Shown: positions 3,406-36,364 of the stretch, in pieces
How the letters are laid out: each line of letters opens with the position of its first letter
Position numbering within the stretch: the stretch's first letter is position 1
Source of the DNA: a virus
Direction: 5' to 3' (one strand)
Length of the DNA: 43,490 bases
IMG/VR virus record: IMGVR_UViG_3300029268_001171
Span: 1 to 43,490 of that record
Translations under genes and position numbers: made by a program
Notes under the pieces: model-generated
Told to the model about the DNA's origin: nothing
Databases searched by the model: none
The model's input: only the letters and a program-made list of their open reading frames with translations

Positions 3406-5052
3406 TTATTCGATCTCCGGCAGCGGGAGCCCCGCGTAGGTGATCGCGTGGCGCAGGCGCATCACCGCAGGCACCCGGCTCAGGCGGTCCTTGCGGAGAG
3501 CCTGACCGAACACGGTCACGATGTAGCGCTCGGCCAGCATTCCGCCTTCCTTGCCGTCTTCACGGCGAGTGTTGCGGAATTTGCCGTAGCCGCGGTAGGC
3601 GCAGCGTTTGCCCAGCATGAGCGTGTCGCCAAAGACCTGTCCCTTGGCATTGCACGGCAGGATGAGCGCATCCTCGGGATGCACTTCGGTGTGCCGGTCG
3701 GCCCACACTCCGGTGTTCCACTGCACGCTGCCCACGGTCTCATACCCGATGCCCGCAGTCGTCGGACCGAGGCGCTTGGTGACCGCGATGGCGTTGCCGT
3801 TGTTGCCCGTGGTGTAGGCATACATGCCGATCTTGTTCGCCCCGCCCTGGCCATCGGTGGCCCACGGAGGATTCACGATCAGGAAGTAGTGCGTGAGCGC
3901 GTCCTGCGCGAGCAGGGTCACCCCGCCCGCCTTCGGGTCGGTCGAGCCGAGGAACTTGTAGGCGAAGTTCGGGAAGTATTTGAAAAACAACTTCTTCGCC
4001 TTGGCCGCGCTGGTGGCGTTGCCGCCCCCATACACAGTGAGCGCCGTGGTTCCGGCCGCAATGGCCACACCCAGCTTGGCCTTCGGGTTGAGCGGGCTGC
4101 CGATGGCTCCCTCGCCGTCGTGGTCGATCGCGGCGTATTCGCGGATGATGTGGTTGTCCACGTCCACATACCCGCCCTTGAAGGGAACCTTCGCCGCCTC
4201 GGCATTGGTCGTCTTGCCGATCAGTTCCTTGTAGGTGTCGTCCAGCTTGAGGCTGAACAGCGCATCCTTGGTGGCCACGACGTTGTTGCGCTGGATCATG
4301 TGACCATTTTCCGTGCGCATCTGGGCGGGCTGGCCGTTCTTGGTGCCCATCACCGTGCCCAGGGCCACGATGTCGTCCCATTTGAGCGTGTCCGCCGACA
4401 CGAGGGTGTCGAGCGTGTTGCTGCCGGGATACAAGACGTTTTCGCGCGGCAACTGCTCGCGGAACATCATGAACAACTGCTCGCTCTTGTAGCGGCCTGC
4501 CCAATCGCCCTGCGCGGTGTTGAAGCCGCTGAGGATCTCCCCGCGGAGGCCCATCACTTCCTCGGCACGCTCGGAAATCTTCGTGCCGTGGCGAGCCCAG
4601 TCAACAAACAGCTCATGGCTTCCAAGGAGGAATTCCTCGTAATCCTCGGGCGTGGTGAAAAGAGACTCCCCGATGTGCGGTTCATCGTAGAACCCGCTGG
4701 CAACGGTGAAGGTGATCTTTTGTCCTCGTCCCTTGGCAAGGTCGGTCTTTTCCCAGATCGTCGAGTTCGGACCCCCGATGTAGTCGGAGAAGAAGTCGGC
4801 ATTCTGGTCAAATACGTCGATGCCATCCTGCCAGAGCTGGCGCACGCTGTTCTCGTCCAGAGTGGCGAGGCTTGTGCCGGTATTCGGGCTGGTGATATCG
4901 AGAGCTACCCCGAGATTGTAAAAATCGGGCCGGACTTGGATGACATACGCCTGGGCAAGGCAGAACAGGGCGGTGGCGCCCATGATCGGCCCGAAAAACA
5001 GCCCGGAGACGATAGCCAAAACAAGGTAAAACGCCGCAAGTGGTGTTTTCAT
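3406..5052 (-). CDS. major capsid protein (N4 gp56 / DUF4043-like), 548 aa
   Basis: From about residue 60 the protein reads like the N4 gp56/DUF4043 group of HK97-fold capsids: DENSVRQLWQDGIDVFDQNA, WEKTDLAKGRGQKITFTVAS near 100, a MGLRGEILSGFNTAQGDWAG helix, then YVDVDNHIIREYAAIDHDGE and the C-terminal ERYIVTVFGQALRKDRLSRV. Length and position next to a scaffold-like gene agree. The oddity is the N-terminus: residues 1-37 (MKTPLAAFYLVLAIVSGLFF, then GPIMGATALFCLAQAYV) look like a signal peptide or membrane helices, which capsid proteins normally lack. Translation from ATG 4983 would remove most of it, but the upstream hairpin and Shine-Dalgarno arrangement supports ATG 5052. An intrinsic terminator follows the gene. 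Confidence 0.85.
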   Translation of the reverse strand: MKTPLAAFYLVLAIVSGLFFGPIMGATALFCLAQAYVIQVRPDFYNLGVALDITSPNTGTSLATLDENSVRQLWQDGIDVFDQNADFFSDYIGGPNSTIWEKTDLAKGRGQKITFTVASGFYDEPHIGESLFTTPEDYEEFLLGSHELFVDWARHGTKISERAEEVMGLRGEILSGFNTAQGDWAGRYKSEQLFMMFREQLPRENVLYPGSNTLDTLVSADTLKWDDIVALGTVMGTKNGQPAQMRTENGHMIQRNNVVATKDALFSLKLDDTYKELIGKTTNAEAAKVPFKGGYVDVDNHIIREYAAIDHDGEGAIGSPLNPKAKLGVAIAAGTTALTVYGGGNATSAAKAKKLFFKYFPNFAYKFLGSTDPKAGGVTLLAQDALTHYFLIVNPPWATDGQGGANKIGMYAYTTGNNGNAIAVTKRLGPTTAGIGYETVGSVQWNTGVWADRHTEVHPEDALILPCNAKGQVFGDTLMLGKRCAYRGYGKFRNTRREDGKEGGMLAERYIVTVFGQALRKDRLSRVPAVMRLRHAITYAGLPLPEIE

Positions 5053-6261: not shown

Positions 6262-6270
6262 AGCCTGTCC

Positions 6271-6297
6271 CGTATAAGGTCTGCTTGAAGCTGTCAA
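6271..6297 (-). promoter_or_regulatory. phage promoter for the scaffold/capsid operon
   Basis: Minus-strand TTGACA (6297-6292), a 15-base spacer starting GCTTCAAGC, then TATACG (6276-6271). The ATG at 6261 is nine bases past the -10 box, so the transcript should be almost leaderless. The same TTGACAGCTTSAAGC core occurs at 14084, 32922 and 36359. Confidence 0.7.
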
Positions 6298-13975: not shown

Positions 13976-14050
13976 TGGTTGCGGGAGGCGGACTCGAACC
14001 GCCGACCTCCGGGTTATGGGCCCGGCGCGCTACCGCTGCGCTACCCCGCG
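13976..14050 (-). tRNA. tRNA with CAU anticodon, initiator (fMet)-like
   Basis: The minus strand reads CGCGGGGT at the 5' end and CTCCCGCAACCA at the 3' end, so CCA is encoded. C1 faces A72 unpaired, as in bacterial initiator tRNAs, and G2-C71 to G7-U66 form the rest of the acceptor stem. The anticodon stem-loop is CCGGG CCCATAA CCCGG, with the three G-C pairs of initiators and anticodon CAU. The D-stem has C11-G24, which is elongator-like, whereas most initiators have a purine at 11. The T-arm GGCGG TTCGAGT CCGCC is normal. It has its own promoter and lies between the portal gene and the zincin gene. Elongator tRNA-Met or tRNA-Ile2 are less likely alternatives. Confidence 0.9.
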
Positions 14051-14061
14051 ATTGAGCGTTC

Positions 14062-14089
14062 CTTTAACGTGTCGGCTTCAAGCTGTCAA
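14062..14089 (-). promoter_or_regulatory. phage promoter upstream of the tRNA
   Basis: Minus-strand TTGACAGCTTGAAGC starts at 14089. With a 16-base spacer the -10 box is TTAAAG (14067-14062); with the usual 15-base spacing it is GTTAAA. The tRNA 5' end is 11-12 bases downstream. The core is identical to that at 32927 and 36364, but here it drives an RNA gene. Confidence 0.65.
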
Positions 14090-17400: not shown

Positions 17401-20400
17401 CAGCCTGGTAGTCGGGGATCTCGGAATCCAGGTCGCGCAAGAGCGCGTCGATGTCGGAAAAATCCTCTTCGGCAGAGGAATTAGTCTCTTCGGCTCCACG
17501 GGCAAAAAGAGCCTGGTTTTCAGAAAGGGAAATTTCCCCGCCCGGATGGTCAAGCAAATGCACTTTTCCCGAGGCATCGGTAAAGAGAGCGCGGGCCTGC
17601 GGGGTGCGCGGAAGCATCCAATAGGCGCGGCCCGGGTGCGAGGCATAGGCGGAATCGATTTCGCGAATGGTTTTCTGGAATTCCTTTGTGGCAATCTCTT
17701 GCGCGAGGGCAAAGTCCGTCGCGTTCGCCTTGTAGTCGCTCCGGTAAATCGGAAGCTGGCTATTTGTGACAGCAATGCTGCGCTCCCGTTCTCCTCCGGT
17801 TGTCTGGAAGAAATCGGCGAGTCTGGCTACTCCCCATTCTCGGGCTGGAGCGTAGGAGATTCCTTGGAAGGCTCTTTCCGCCGGTATGCCGTAGGGTCCG
17901 CCGTAAGCCTGTGCGCTTTTATCGGGCGAGGGATGCCATGGGGATTGCGTTTGCGATCCTTTTCCAGTTTGCGCCACTGGTTTTCCGGCGTCGTGTGGTA
18001 AGGGGCGGGATATTCCATTTGATTGCCCATACGAATCTCCTGGCGTTTCGTCAACCTGATACCCGCGCGCCATGAGTTGAAGCGTCGAGTTCAACCCGCG
18101 TTCCCCCAGATTTTTCCGCATGATTCGCAGGGCGGCTTTCAATACCTGCTCTGCCCTCTGCTTGCTGAGCCCGCCCATATCCTGCCCGATTTGTTCAAGC
18201 GTCTTGTGCTCGCTGAATCCCTGAATGGCGATCTGCATTTGGGGGGTCAAAGCGGAGATACTTTTATCCAAAACCCTCCTGCTCTCCCTCAAAGCGGCGG
18301 CGTCGGGAGCGGCAAGCGTGCGGGTGTCTGCGGCGAAATCTCCCCGTGTTTCGGAATCCGGGTCATCCGTCCTCGGTTCATCGAGAGAAACCGGAAACAG
18401 GCTGCGCCGGGTATCTTCCTTGCGGTAGAGCGAGCGGAGGCGGTTGCGCACAGAAACCCCGGCATAGGCGGAAAACGGCTTCCCAAGCGTCCCGTCGAAC
18501 TTCCGCGCGCTATCGGCGAGGGCCAGCCGGGCAACCTGCCGGATTTCCTCCTGGTCCACCCCGGGGATGTTGTTCCATGCGGAGGCGATGCGCATCGCCT
18601 GCGGGAGTTCCGCCTTGAACCGATCGAGCGGATACAACTCGGCGTCGGCCTGCGCCGCGGGGCGGTCCTCGGGGATCGAGTCGAAGTCGAAAAGCTCCTG
18701 ATTCGGGTCGTAGGTGGTCTTGCGCGCCTGGAGTTGTTGCGGTGTGTGGGCTCGCTGGTGGCGCTCGTCGGCATAGAGGGCCTCGGTCTCCACCCGTTCT
18801 TGTGAGAGCGTGTCGTATTCCTCTTGATACGGCCATGCTGCCGTTTCGGACATTCCGGCCAGTTGGCGCAAGCGTTCGGAATTCATGGCCTGGCCGCGCC
18901 CGAGAGATTCCACCGTGTCCACAAGCTCCTCCAATCGGGAAAGAAGCGTTCCCGGGCTGGTCACGACTCCAAAGCTCAAATCGTTCTCTGCGTCGGCGGC
19001 GCCGGTCACCAGGTCGAATGTCACCGCGCTCCGCTGCACCATGCGCTTGGCGTCCTCGTCCCATTCGTTGTCCACCTTCACGGTGGGGTGCAGGAAAATG
19101 GGCGTCCCGTTGACAGTGATCGAGGTCACGGGCGGGGAGATCTGGCGACCGTCGGCGCTCAGTCGCAGGGATCCGCGCGAGGCATCCAGCGCGGCCTTGA
19201 CGGCCTCGGCGGTGGCCGCTTTGGTCTCGAATGTCTCCCCGTCCACGGCCAGCACGATCCCCTTCTCGGCGATACCGGCGGCGAGGCGCCGCATCTTCTC
19301 GACAGAGGGAGCGAGGCGGGCAATGCGCTCGTCGTAGATTCGCAGGTGGTTTTGCGCGTTGGAAATCTCGGATTTCCGTCGATCGGCCTCCATTTCGTGC
19401 GCGTAGCGGGACATGCGCAGTTCGTCGAGCCGGGTGTTGATCTCCCAGAGCCGGCGACCGTATCTCCCGGAGAGCACGGCCCGCTGTTCCTGCAGGTTGA
19501 GGCTGGTTTTGTCCTCGGCCAGCTCGCGGCCCTTGATCTTGCCGGAAAGCGCGGCGTAGGCAAACCGCTGCTTGGTCTCAAGCTTTTGCCAGAGGGCGGC
19601 ATCCAGCGTGTCCTCCATGCCATAGCGCAGGAGTTCAATATCAACCCCCATCTCGCCGTGGACGTTTCCCTGGCGGAAAACCCGACCGTCGCGCTGCTCG
19701 AGTTCCGCCGGCGTCCATGGCACGTCCAGATGGTGGGCCGCGATCATGCGTTGCTGCATGTTCACTCCGGTTCCGAGTTTCTTCGTGGACCCGATGATGA
19801 CGCGGATCTTCCCCTCGTTCACCATGTCGAAAAGCGCCAGCTTCTTTTTATCGTTGTTCCATTTGGAATCCGTGATGACGGCGATTTCTTCCGCCGGGAT
19901 CCCTTGGGCGATCAGCTTTTCGCGGATGTCGTCGTAGAGGTTGAACGTCGTCCCCGGTCCTTTTTCGGGATCCAGCTCAATGTCAAGGCTTGAGGGTGTG
20001 ACGGCATCAAAGAGCGTGATTTTCTGTTGGTTGAAGGAATCGGCGAAAATCACCTGTGTGCCCTTGTAGGCGTCGGTGTCGTGGTAAAGGTCCATCAGAC
20101 GGCCAATCATGCGGTTGACCTTGCTGCCGGGTTCATCCTTGGCGCGGGGTTCGATCAGGCGGATGTCGATTGCGGCCGCCCGGCTCGCCATGAACGCCTG
20201 CACGGGCACGGCCCCAAGGCTGGGATTCTCGGCAATGTCCTTCCCGTCGAGTTGGGAATAATCATCCAGAACTCCGCGGATGTAGCGCACCCACTCGGCC
20301 ACGCCATTGCTTCTGGGCACCGCCACGAGTTCCGGGGCGCCGCCTTTGATTCCCGGGCGGTTCTTTACAACAAGGTCGTCTCCCAGTTTCACGTCGGCAG

Positions 20401-23400
20401 CCTGTCGCAAAAACGTGGCCCACTCGGGCAGGTTTACAAACCGGGAAAGCCGGTCCACGTTCTTGAAATCCCCATTGGCTCCCATCTCGCTCTCGGTGGT
20501 GACCACGGCAAATTTGCTCACAAACTGGTCGAAAAGTTCCACCTTGTAATCCCGCAGGACGTTCGGTGCCACCAGGCGGATCATATTCCAGATTTCCCCC
20601 AGCGTGTTTGTCACCGGAGTGCCGGTCATGGAAAAGACGTTTTTTCCACCCATCTGCGCCTGAATCTGCCGGGCGCGCATGAGCAGCGCGTATCCCTTTG
20701 CGCTCATGCCCCCGTCGATCCCCTTCGCCTCAAGCTGGGTGGAGAAGGGCATCTTCTTGAACTCGTGCACCTCGTCCACAATGAGGGCATCCACCCCGAG
20801 CTGTTGGAAATTGAGGAGCCCGGTATCGGTCCGGCGCTTCTTGGCCGAGTCAATGCGGCCTTCGAGTTTTTCGATTTGCTTGACCAGGGCCTTGACCGTC
20901 GGGGGCTTCCGGCGGTCCTCCTTGGCGTCAGCCACACTGTCGTAACCTTTCTCCTTCAACGTGGCCATGGCCTCGTCCACCAGCGCGCGGGAATGTTTGA
21001 TCTCCACCTCGGGATCATCCTCGATGAGACCAAACGTGGAATGGGCGATGACAACGGCATCCCAGTCGCCGGCGGCGATGCGCATCAAGAATTCTTTGCG
21101 CTTGGGTCCGCCCAGCTCGTCCTTGCGCCCGACCAGCACCCGGGCGGTCGGCGCCATCTTGGCGATTTCCTTTGCAAAGCCTTCCAGCGTGGCGTTGTGA
21201 ACCACGATCATGGGCTTGCGCGCCATTCCCAGCCGGCGCATTTCCAGAGCAATGCCGCTGCCGATGATCGTCTTGCCCCCGCCCACACCGTGCGCGATGA
21301 GCCCGAATCCCTCCTGGATCGCCCGCCAAATCGTGTTCTTCTTGTCGGGGTAGATGTTGAAATCCTTGTTCGCCCATGGGAAGGCGAGAAATTGCCCGTC
21401 GTAGGTGCGCTGGACGTGGGAGTTGACTTCCTGATTGTAAACCTCGGCAAGTTCGGCGGCGACATCCTCGGTTCCCCTCACCCAGGAAATGAATTTTTCC
21501 CCCAGCAGTTTCGCCCTTTCGCGCGCGGCGGTGGTGGCTGCCTGGTCGATCCCCCCTCCCTCTTTCTCGCTCTTGGTGATCGTGATGGCCTTGAGATTGA
21601 GCAGGGAATCCATGATCCCCTCGATCGGGGCGGAGGTCGTCTCGTAATCCTTGTATTCCACCCCGCTCTTGGAGTTGCGCTTGTCCCGGACCATCTCCCA
21701 CTCGCTGCGCTCGTTCTCGGTCTTGTAAACGAACCGGTAGCCGGAGACTCCCAGGCTTTCCAGGAATCGGTTGTAAATGTCCGCCGGGATCCATGTCGCC
21801 CCGACCGAAAACCGGATGTCCTCGATGCCGACACGCTGGGGCTGAATGGATTCCAGCATCCGCACATTGCGGGCGTAGTCCGGGCCCGCGGACTGCGCGA
21901 TGATCAGCTTTTTGCGCACGTTGCCCGAAAGGTATTGCTCGCGGGAGAACAGGCGCCCGGTTTCCGGATCCCGCACGGCGATCTCCTGCACAAGCAGGGC
22001 GTTCTCGACTTGCTCGGGGGTCTGTCCCAGCAGGTCGGCCATAAACCGGGAATCCACGGAATTGCGCCAGCCGAGGGAAATCCCAAAGGCATCTTCCAGG
22101 GTGTCCGCCTTGGTCGGCTCGCTGCGCGGCTCGAGCACGCGCTTGGTGAAGATGTCGGCCTTGACGTATTCCTTCTTCTGTCCCTTTTTCGCCCATTCCA
22201 GAATGGCGGACGTGCCCTTGTTGGCCGCTTTTTCCACCTCGGCCCCCAGCAGGCGGAAGTAATCCGGGTCATCGATGAAAAGGGCCTTGTTCCGGCGGTC
22301 GTGGAACTCGGCGAATTTCGCCTTGAAGGCGTCGTAATTCTGGTTGAGCTGGCGGCGGTTGTCTTCGATCTCCTCCGCGCTCGCCGTATCGGAGAGTTCC
22401 AAGTCGTATTGCCGGTTCAGGGCGTCGCGCACGTCGAGGAACCGGGAGACCCGCGGGGCATTCTTCGGGGCGTTGAGATCGGCATCGGGTTCGTCGTGGC
22501 CTTGGAAGTAATATTTCCCGTCCCGGTAAACGATGTTGCCCATTTTGACAACGGAAGCGCCGTTTCGCACCGGGCCGCTCTCCTCCACTTCTCCCATGAT
22601 CCCCTGTGGGATGGTGGCAAGGTCCTGCTGCATCGCCACCGAGGGCGGGCGGTTGGAATCGCCATGGACGGTCATTTCCTCTTTCTCCCCATACATGGAC
22701 CCGTCGTTGTCGAGCAGGCCGAGGATATTCTTGGGATTGGCCGCGAAGTATTCGTTGATCCGGATGTCCGCTCCCTTCTGGGTTTTGGCGTCTCCAAGGG
22801 TCGTCCACGCCTGGGCGTGCGGGAAGGGTTTCCCGTCCTTTTTCCGTAATACAATAATGTCGGTCACCACGTCGGTGCCGGCATTGTCCTTGAAGGCGTC
22901 GTTGGGCAGCCGGTAGGCGGCTACCAGGTCGGCGCGTTCGGAGAGCCATTTGCGGATCTCGGGGTTTCCCTTGTCCATTGTGAACGCGCTGGTGATGAAG
23001 ATTTGCACCCCGCCGGGTTTGAGCTTGGTCAGCGCCTTGCCAAAAAAGTAGTCATGCAGGTTGCTCACGGGTCCGCCCATCGCCTCAAGCGCCTTGTCGG
23101 CAACCGGGATGTTGGCAAACGGCACGTTCGAGATGGCGAGATCAATCGAGTTGTCGGCGATGTCGGCTTTCTGGAACCCGATGTTCTGGATATCGGCCTC
23201 GGGATAGAGCGCCTTGAGAATCTTTGAGGTGTAGGAGTCGAGTTCCACTCCAAAGAGTTTGCTGCGATCGGCAATCTCCTCGGGCATGAGTCCGAAAAAG
23301 TGTCCGATTCCCGCGCCCGGTTCCAAGACATTCCCGCCTTTGAATCCCATCCATTTCGCAATGTCCCACATGGAAGCGATGATTTGCGGGCTGGTGTAGT

Positions 23401-26400
23401 GGGCGTTGATCGTGCTGCGCTTGGCCGCCCGGTATTCCTCCTCGTTGAGAAGGGATTTCAGCTCCGCGTGGGCCTCGCCCCATTGGTTTTTCCAGTTTTC
23501 GAGGGATTGGGCGGCCGCAAGCTGGCTTTCGGCCTCGCTGCGGTAGTAATCGCTGTCCCCGTAGCTGCGGGTGCGCTCTGCCGTGCGCCGGCGGGTTTCA
23601 ATCTCTCCATTCTCCACGCGGTCTGCCTTGTCGTCGTCGAACGCCTGCGAGAGTGCGCCCCAGCCGGAAAATTTCACAAGCGCCTGTTTTTCCTCTGCCG
23701 TGGCCAGCCGGCCCTCGGACTCCATGGCCTTGATGATGCGCAAGGCTTCCAGGTTCGCCCGCAGTTTGCTCACGGTGCCCCGCGGGGCAAGCGCCTGATC
23801 GCGCGAAAGGGTGATGTTGCGAGCGGGATCCCCGACGGGCGGGCGCTGGGTGGTTACTCCTGAACCCGGTTGAGCAATGACATTGCTCTTTTTTGCAGGT
23901 CGGGGGGAAGCGGATCGTCCGCCCTTTCCTCCCAGTCCTCCGGATACGGGAAGAGTTCCTTGAGGGCTTCCGTCTCCTCCCGGTCGTCGAGTTTCATCGC
24001 CTTCACGAGTTGGAGCGCCTTCTGGTCCATCCACTCCAAGAACTCCTCCTCCGGCCCCTCGAGTCGTTCCTGAATCTCGCTCGGCGTCGCGCTGGCCAGC
24101 CAGGACTGAAAACAGGTCTCCCATTCCTCCGTCCGGCGGACGTTCTTGCGTTCTTCCGGCGTGAAGTTTCCGAGCAGGATTCGCTGCTCCTCGGGTGAGA
24201 GTTTGGTTTTCATTTTGTGGCTCCTGGTTGCTGATACGTTTGGGATCTCCATTCGTCAAGGGGCTCCCGAAAAGATCGAGTGCGACCGGGGCGGACACCC
24301 CAAGGTCGGACATGGCGGCGGCGGCTTTTGCCGATGGTGCGGAGATCCCCTCCCCTTGGAGCGCCTTGTCATAGGCGGCGATCTCCGGGGCGGAAAAGGC
24401 AAAGAGGTCGCCGGTCTGGTCGTCTTTGCTGGCGCGGCGGGCCTGCAACTGCACAGCTGGCGGGATATAGCCGTGAACGACGGCGGTTTTCTCCCACATG
24501 GGAAGGTCAGCCGATTGGATGACCCGATGGTAAATCTGTGCGAGGCGGCGTTTGGCCTCGGCTTCGGGGAGGTTCCTTAGTGAACCTTCGGGAGTTTGTC
24601 CCCGTGCTTGGCCTTCCACTCGGCCTTCGCGCGGTCGAAGTGGGCTTGCCTCTCCTGTTCGGTTTGGCCCGCCGGCCCGGTCGGTCTTAGCTTCTTGGTC
24701 TCGTTGGTTTTCATCCTCTAAGCTACCATACGCACTAGACATCAAATCGTCAACGCCTTTTGACCTATAAATGTGATCAATATGGCCTTCGTTGGTAATA
24801 ACCTCGAAGGGATATTTGTCTCCAAATTCGCGATAGAGTCTTAGGAAAACTTTTTGCGCCTCATAGTGCGCCTGGCCGAGGGAATCCTTGTCGAGCGGGC
24901 GTCCGATGTCCCGCAGTCTTTGGATGGCTGCCTCGGAAGCGTTTTGAAACGGGCGATAGACGAAGGTCAAATGAGGAGTCAGCCCGGCTGCCTCAACCTC
25001 CCCAATCATCCTCACCGCCCGGTCATAGTTTCCAAGGACTGTATCCATGAAAATGGCGGTCCGACGCTTGTCGTCATCGTCATACGTCTTGTGAACGGAA
25101 GTCGTCTTCCCGCTGGCCATCCCGCCGGCCATGAAAACCACTGTTCCACGCTTTGAGGGATCGGTGTTTTTGAGCCAGTGATCCCATGCCAGACGGGAGG
25201 TGATGTAGCCAGCCGGTGCCAGCGTGGCCCGGTCTATGGCGGGACGAAGGTCTTTGTTGTCGCGGTAGAGCGGGTAAACATCCCGGGCGAGGTCGGCATT
25301 GAGGTAGCGGCCTTCGGCTTCCTCTCCAAAGTCCTCTTTGGCAAGGGCGGTATATTTCCCAAGGGACTCCTCGGGGGATTTGGAAATTTGCGCGGCAAAG
25401 TGGGCTTCGATCGTGCGCTCGTATCGAGTGAGCCTGGGCGATGGCATAAAGCCGGGGAGCCCGGGATATCCGTTGGCGGCATCGGCCTCGACCGCTGCGC
25501 GAAACGCCTCGGGGAGTCCGTTCCATGCCCCCTGCACCGAGCGTTCGAGTTTTTTGCGCGAGGGATGATCGGCAGGAACGTTGGTTTCCTGCGGCAACGC
25601 TTGAGCAAGGATGTCTTCCGCGGCCTGGCGGCTCGGGCTGTCCACCGGCCTGCGCGCCATGAGCTGCATTTGTTCGACCGGGGCCCGGGGGATCCCGATG
25701 CGCACAAGTTGCGTTTCCAATTGGAAGTTGTCCGATAGCGCTTGGTCAAAGAACCCCATGAACTCCTGCCCGCTGGTCTTTTCAAGCTGGGTGAGTTCCG
25801 CGCTCTCCCAGCGGGTGAGGCTCTCGCCTTGGCGCTTGCGCTGCAGGTCCCGGATCCGGCGCGATCGGTTGAAACCCGTTCCCCGGGATTGGAGTTGGGG
25901 GGAGATCGATGAAACCTTGCGGAAGTGGGCTTCGATGGCTGCGTTGAGCGTCTCGGCCATGGTGGGGGCAGATCCCAGCAGATCGGCCTCACCTGTGAAA
26001 TGTTCCACGCCGCTGGCGAGGTCGGAGAGCAAGTCATCGAATCCGGCAGAGGTCTCGTCGGCATCCACAGAAAAGATGCCTTTTTTGTTCTTCGGAAGGA
26101 ATTCGACCTTCGAAGCGAGCGCGGAGGCGATGGCCTGGATAACCGGACCGTCCTCCCCGATTTCCTGTTGTTCGGCAGCCTGGGAAATCGCCAAGTTGAG
26201 CTTGCGTCCGTTCCGGGCATATTCGCTCACGCGCTCGAGTGTGCGCCCGATGGCGTCGGCAATGTTGCCGTGGCCTTTTGAGCGGAGTTGCAAGGCTGTG
26301 CCCGTCGCGCTCTTGATCAAGCTGGCGATCGTGGCGTGTCCACTCGACCATTGCGCGGAGGTGACAAACTCCCCGAGGGCCTTGCTGCGGAATGCGGCGG

Positions 26401-32890: not shown

Positions 32891-32900
32891 GGACACCGCC

Positions 32901-32927
32901 AATATCTTGACCGCTTCAAGCTGTCAA
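32901..32927 (-). promoter_or_regulatory. phage promoter for the giant-protein operon
   Basis: Minus-strand TTGACA (32927-32922) continues GCTTGAAGC. After a 15-base spacer comes GATATT (32906-32901), with the ATG ten bases beyond at 32890. The core is extended here into a 21-base near-palindrome, TTGACAGCTTGAAGCGGTCAA. It drives the 261-aa protein, the giant gene and the zincin gene. Confidence 0.7.
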
Positions 32928-36328: not shown

Positions 36329-36337
36329 GCCCCCTGC

Positions 36338-36364
36338 CCTACAACGACGGCTTCAAGCTGTCAA
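36338..36364 (-). promoter_or_regulatory. phage promoter for the HNH-terminase operon
   Basis: Minus-strand TTGACA (36364-36359) and GCTTGAAGC, then TGTAGG (36343-36338) after a 15-base spacer. The ATG at 36328 is nine bases further on. The -35 box overlaps the stop codon of the upstream 98-aa gene. Confidence 0.7.

Follow-up and report, generated by a model that had tools for sequence, protein, structure and literature searches.

The window analysed here is the whole 43,490-base virus record IMGVR_UViG_3300029268_001171. Its largest gene is an uninterrupted 5,884-codon open reading frame on the minus strand, which has portal, terminase and major-head genes as neighbours (the head match is weak). 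The encoded giant protein matches phrog_10089 (DarB-like antirestriction) with 1063.6 bits and is about 33% identical to annotated DarB-like proteins of Atu_ph08, PEp14, PBC5, BcepIL02 and VvAW1. Based on these similarities it is assigned to the DarB-like methylase-helicases of the 'polyvalent' type, and zeta-toxin-like, methylase, helicase and sigma domains are indeed assembled as disparate parts of one polypeptide, as is characteristic of polyvalent proteins (Table 1). The DarB-like branch of these proteins in Bcep22-, PBC5- and PEp14-like podophages (Iyer et al., 2017, PMC5512222) likewise comprises giant multidomain proteins that combine a methylase with an SNF2-type helicase and whose genes lie among those for virion proteins. 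It differs from the window's protein with regard to the sigma domain: the eight cultured relatives yielded no module match over the cut-off, and the word sigma does not occur in the main text of that survey.

Table 1. Coordinates of the giant gene, its predicted domains and the promoter-like repeats in the window.
Feature	Position	Strand	Basis
Giant DarB-like polyvalent protein gene, 5,884 aa	14447..32101	-	single open frame; phrog_10089 match
DarB-like methyltransferase and SNF2-type helicase core, residues 2870-4446	18764..23494	-	phrog_10089, SNF2-rel_dom, ResIII and Helicase_C matches
Zeta-toxin-like P-loop domain	24767-25069	-	PF06414, 28.9 bits
Sigma module, residues ~4495-4672 (~180 residues)	18086-18619	-	
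Sigma region 2, residues 4495-4563	18413..18619	-	Pfam PF04542; fold match to RpoS region 2
Region 3.2-like finger linker, residues 4569-4600	18302..18397	-	aligned with RpoD and RpoS region 3.2
Sigma region 4 with helix-turn-helix, residues 4609-4672	18086..18277	-	TIGR02937; PDB profile alignment
Second region-4-like helix-turn-helix	16613..16720	-	PF04545, 24.2-26.6 bits (cut-off 24.1)
Promoter-like TTGACA-N17-TAGGGC, ATG 7 nt downstream	36336..36364	-	exact repeat; family
Promoter-like TTGACA-N17-TATTGG, ATG 8 nt downstream, before 261-codon gene running into giant gene	32899..32927	-	exact repeat; family
Promoter-like TTGACA-N17-TAAAGG, before tRNA-Met and portal gene	14061..14089	-	exact repeat; pre-portal sites of relatives
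Promoter-like TTGACA-N17-TACGGG, ATG 7 nt downstream, before capsid-gene cluster	6269..6297	-	exact repeat; family
tRNA-Met (CAT) gene, between promoter repeat and portal gene	13976-14050	-	
Palindrome GCTTSAAGC just past the -35	36350-36364, 32913-32927, 14075-14089, 6283-6297	-	

A preliminary description of this DNA had proposed a sigma-70-like domain at residues ~4490-4675, made up of a region-2-like block and a region-4-like helix-turn-helix. This proposal is borne out by sequence models, an alignment-based profile and the predicted fold; its three quoted motifs are located at residues 4532, 4552 and 4618 and lie on the minus strand, the strand not having been given originally. Region 2 is recognized by Pfam Sigma70_r2 (PF04542; 30.1 bits, cut-off 24), while TIGR02937, a two-domain sigma model, spans residues 4498-4665 with 62.6 bits (cut-off 42.9). 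The module is also matched by phrog_351 and phrog_1740, both annotated as 'RNA polymerase sigma factor'. Region 4 by itself scores 17.5 bits against PF04545, under the cut-off of 24.1; evidence for it comes from the fold, from models spanning both domains and from the profile search of the PDB. When compared with solved structures by phmmer, residues 101-206 of the piece align with RpoD, including a region 3.2 finger (PVSLDEPRTDDPDSETRGDF opposite RpoD PISLETPIGDEEDSHLGDF) that had been overlooked in the preliminary description. A profile built from eight phage copies retrieved, at E <= 0.001, 83 different chains of solved structures, the best 60 of which are sigma factors throughout, with RpoS at the top (E 1.2e-23). 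The match to sigma factors is far beyond chance.

Region 2, finger and region 4 of RpoS and RpoD all align with the module. In the profile alignment, only ~8 module positions face the roughly 60 RpoS residues separating regions 2 and 3.2, indicating that domain 3 (regions 3.0/3.1) is absent, and no match to region 1.2 was found upstream of the module. It therefore lacks the regions (1.2 and 3.0/3.1) that mark group 1/2 sigma factors of the RpoD and RpoS type. The layout read from these alignments is domain 2, finger, domain 4. Such a compact arrangement is not unique, as region 2 leads directly into the finger in the spore-type sigma factors encountered here, too.

An AlphaFold model calculated with five sequences has a mean pLDDT of 71.6 and consists of two confident helical parts, with the linker 104-133 (the finger region) disordered; the low pTM of 0.43 would be expected if the domains were free to move. 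Structure prediction against sigma-70, one of the checks named in the preliminary description, returned sigma factors as best PDB matches. All three Foldseek matches at E <= 0.001 are sigma chains, and the PDB fold matches listed for the model are sigma factors in every row (Z up to 10.8). In VIA-align, domain 2 superimposes on a Legionella RpoS fragment with Z 10.7 and an rmsd of 2.8 over 85 residues; for small helical domains a Z of ~10 is by itself not decisive, and here the sequence evidence concurs. The modelled structure supports a sigma fold, and the identity of the module as a member of the sigma-70 family is well supported. The second helix-turn-helix of the giant protein (Table 1) is situated in a conserved C-terminal part that, according to the alignment, is common to the sigma-less relative G002; its fold search was weak, with zero structure matches at E <= 0.001.

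Individual residues may contribute to answering the question of what the module does. In sigma-70 numbering, the positions of F419, G424 and F427 are invariant among the eight phage copies, that of Q406 is kept in seven of the eight, and Y430 is present in the window's copy. The tryptophan pair of region 2.3 (W433/W434), present in RpoS and RpoD, is replaced and the Q437 position is occupied by N in all eight copies. The recognition helix opens with K-Q in the five close phages, where sigma-70 has R584-E585, and differs in the other phages. Core-contact positions are more conserved than the promoter-opening tryptophans. This pattern would fit both core binding and altered promoter use and is proof of neither; with W433/W434 replaced and region 1.2 missing, promoter opening is uncertain. 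Better conservation of core contacts is also what speaks for capture of the polymerase or host shut-off, a process in which the module would take the core from host sigmas or hold it at the incoming DNA without any choice of promoter. Modification of host proteins, polymerase among them, has been predicted for other polyvalent proteins (PMC5512222), in line with such a role, but the recognition helix of region 4 and the finger have been retained under selection, and we regard this explanation as unlikely. Judging from fold and kept residues, the module is likely to act on host polymerase, presumably binding the core via region 2.2 and region 4 surfaces.

The module is not restricted to the window but resides inside the giant open reading frame of ten further viral records (G001, G005, G006, G007, G008, G010-G013 and G020), with 40-52% identity in the first four and more divergent sequences in the remainder. 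In nine giants that were mapped, it is located 744-1,106 residues past the helicase DEVH box. In sister phages that lack it, such as G002 and G003, different domains occupy that place, a RadC-like HNHPSGDP stretch included, and the module may thus be regarded as acquired and exchangeable. In L005 and L006, from sister phages, the module's place past the helicase part is taken by other domains; the RadC-like HNHPSGDP motif is among them, and L006 has an HExxH motif as well. An HExxH peptidase motif, which might free the module, was looked for in the window's giant protein and not found. A DPNQLELDF-type peptide, which resembles a sliding-clamp-binding motif, directly precedes the module in L008, L014, L015 and the window (~18700). 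Since the module is fused just past the helicase in all mapped cases, it is conceivable that a sigma fold which has lost its polymerase role merely places the methylase-helicase on DNA or loads the giant protein into the capsid. The region 3.2 finger is a structure that works within polymerase, and its preservation in the closest copies makes an adaptor of this kind quite improbable.

Relatives of the giant protein were reached via its helicase part and small alignments, as an IMG/VR search with the module alone yielded nothing; scans of bacterial and archaeal genomes for a relative of the module were likewise negative. The cultured phage Itty13 gave one weak match, in a separate 258-codon open reading frame, and the distant DarB-bearing record G015 contains a stand-alone sigma gene, ECF-like and 244 codons long (L051, 1345-2076), ~9 kb from the helicase part. 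Matches in human-gut 'Bacteriophage sp.' entries were set aside, not being giant proteins; they are stand-alone sigma open reading frames of 192-295 codons, several of them spore-type.

Nei-Gojobori omega values of the module range from 0.063 to 0.092 for the three closest pairs and amount to 0.28 for the nearly saturated pair of window and G001. The module is under purifying selection. Some promoter-contact residues are replaced and region 4 alone stays under the Pfam cut-off, features that could be taken as signs of an acquired sigma gene in decay and now functionless. With the frame open in eleven records, omega at 0.06-0.09 in close pairs and the order of domains constant across 23-52% identity, this is hardly credible.

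Concerning delivery, 51 unique peptides of the DarB-like homologue gp69 were detected in virions of the Bcep22-like phage JC1 after purification in CsCl (PMC9144972), and DarB of phage P1 is described as prepackaged in the capsid (PMC6630229). By analogy, the window's giant protein is likely to be packed into the virion and delivered, its injection being deduced from the presence of JC1 gp69 in virions. The term 'ejectable protein' used in the preliminary description is supported to that extent, that is, by homology. In the open-licence papers searched, we found no description of a sigma domain within a polyvalent protein.

The sequence TTGACAGCTTSAAGC occurs exactly four times in the window, always on the minus strand, at 36364, 32927, 14089 and 6297. 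Repeated promoters had been noted before at 6292, 32922 and 36359; they belong to a real family, to which the site at 14089 has to be added. The pattern TTGACAGC-N15-TA was observed four times against an expectation of 0.1, and two to four sites each (expected <=0.1) are present in the sigma-bearing G001, G005, G006 and G007. The sigma-less relatives G002 and G003 have zero and one, respectively, and none was found in the distant sigma-bearing G008, G010, G013 and G020. A de novo search for 8-mers upstream of genes returned TTGACAGC-type words in G000, G006 and G007 and in none of the other genomes searched. Three of the four repeats in the window have an ATG 7-8 nt past the -10, as in leaderless messages. 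A final T is missing from all four -10 hexamers, and all four -35 elements are perfect host consensus, which host sigma-70 could use. The palindrome listed in Table 1, present as GCGAAACGC-type versions in G001, is a possible repressor operator. At 6297 (-) and 6305 (+), promoter-like sites are placed back to back, the former reading into the capsid cluster and the latter into a gene of 224 codons; G005, G006 and G007 have retained a comparable pair.

All four sites precede virion genes or the tRNA-portal unit: they are found near terminase, before the giant gene itself, before the tRNA-portal unit and before the capsid operon, and the sites of relatives are likewise near terminase, giant and portal genes. 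The set looks like one of virion genes with a host-type -35 rather than one of obvious early genes. This placement would fit a late, self-reinforcing sigma factor, by which newly made giant protein would drive virion-gene promoters including its own, its presence in the virion being incidental. Late sigma factors have been described in phages (PMC7824862). A stand-alone gene would suit such a task better, however, whereas its being part of a packaged antirestriction protein suggests that the module is used at entry, and the first round of virion-gene expression would require another start. We consider the late alternative rather unlikely. Presence and absence of promoters and module agree well in the five close phages, the same ones whose recognition helix opens with K-Q, and unevenly beyond them, the motif being absent from distant sigma-bearing phages and present once in sigma-less G003. 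Because of the placement before virion genes, the host-type -35 and the absence of the motif from distant sigma-bearing phages, coupling of the module to these promoters is unproven, and we put the link forward as a hypothesis.

Of the explanations considered, a virion-delivered sigma module is the most likely. Domain 2, the finger linker and domain 4 would together make up a compact sigma-70-type factor, one exchangeable module of the DarB-like polyvalent protein. As its homologue suggests, this giant protein would be packed in the virion and enter the cell with the DNA. There, the module would help the host polymerase to start at the phage's own TTGACAGC-N15-TA promoters, while the adjoining methylase-helicase is thought to shield the same DNA from restriction. 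Recruitment of host polymerase to the repeated promoters immediately upon ejection is plausible. For this explanation as a whole, a virion-delivered module acting on host core at phage promoters, we see the chances as evenly balanced.

Comparable solutions exist in other phages. The virion RNA polymerase of N4 would likewise give transcription at entry via a very large virion protein, and N4-like RNAP has been named among the polyvalent proteins (PMC5512222); N4 supplies a whole polymerase, whereas the window's protein would provide only a sigma factor requiring host core. The injected ADP-ribosyltransferase Alt of T4, predicted to act on host polymerase (PMC5512222), modifies the enzyme chemically, while the module would be a specificity subunit. 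Jumbo phages recruit host core polymerase by stand-alone sigma factors (PMC7824862), which are separate genes expressed after infection and not, like the module, a domain of a putatively packaged protein.

Phage transcription is known to start from strong host-type promoters, by packaged polymerase or with the aid of packaged polymerase-modifying enzymes. If our explanation is true, packaging a sigma factor would jump-start it by a simpler route and give another answer to the 'first promoter' problem. The small size of the module (~180 residues) and the mapped candidate promoters make the idea accessible to direct tests. We tentatively propose, at somewhat less than even chances, that the phage particle carries a working sigma factor in its antirestriction protein, such that one injected molecule would both shield the DNA and direct host polymerase to phage promoters. 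Its fusion to an antirestriction machine would then link the protection of the incoming DNA with its first transcription.
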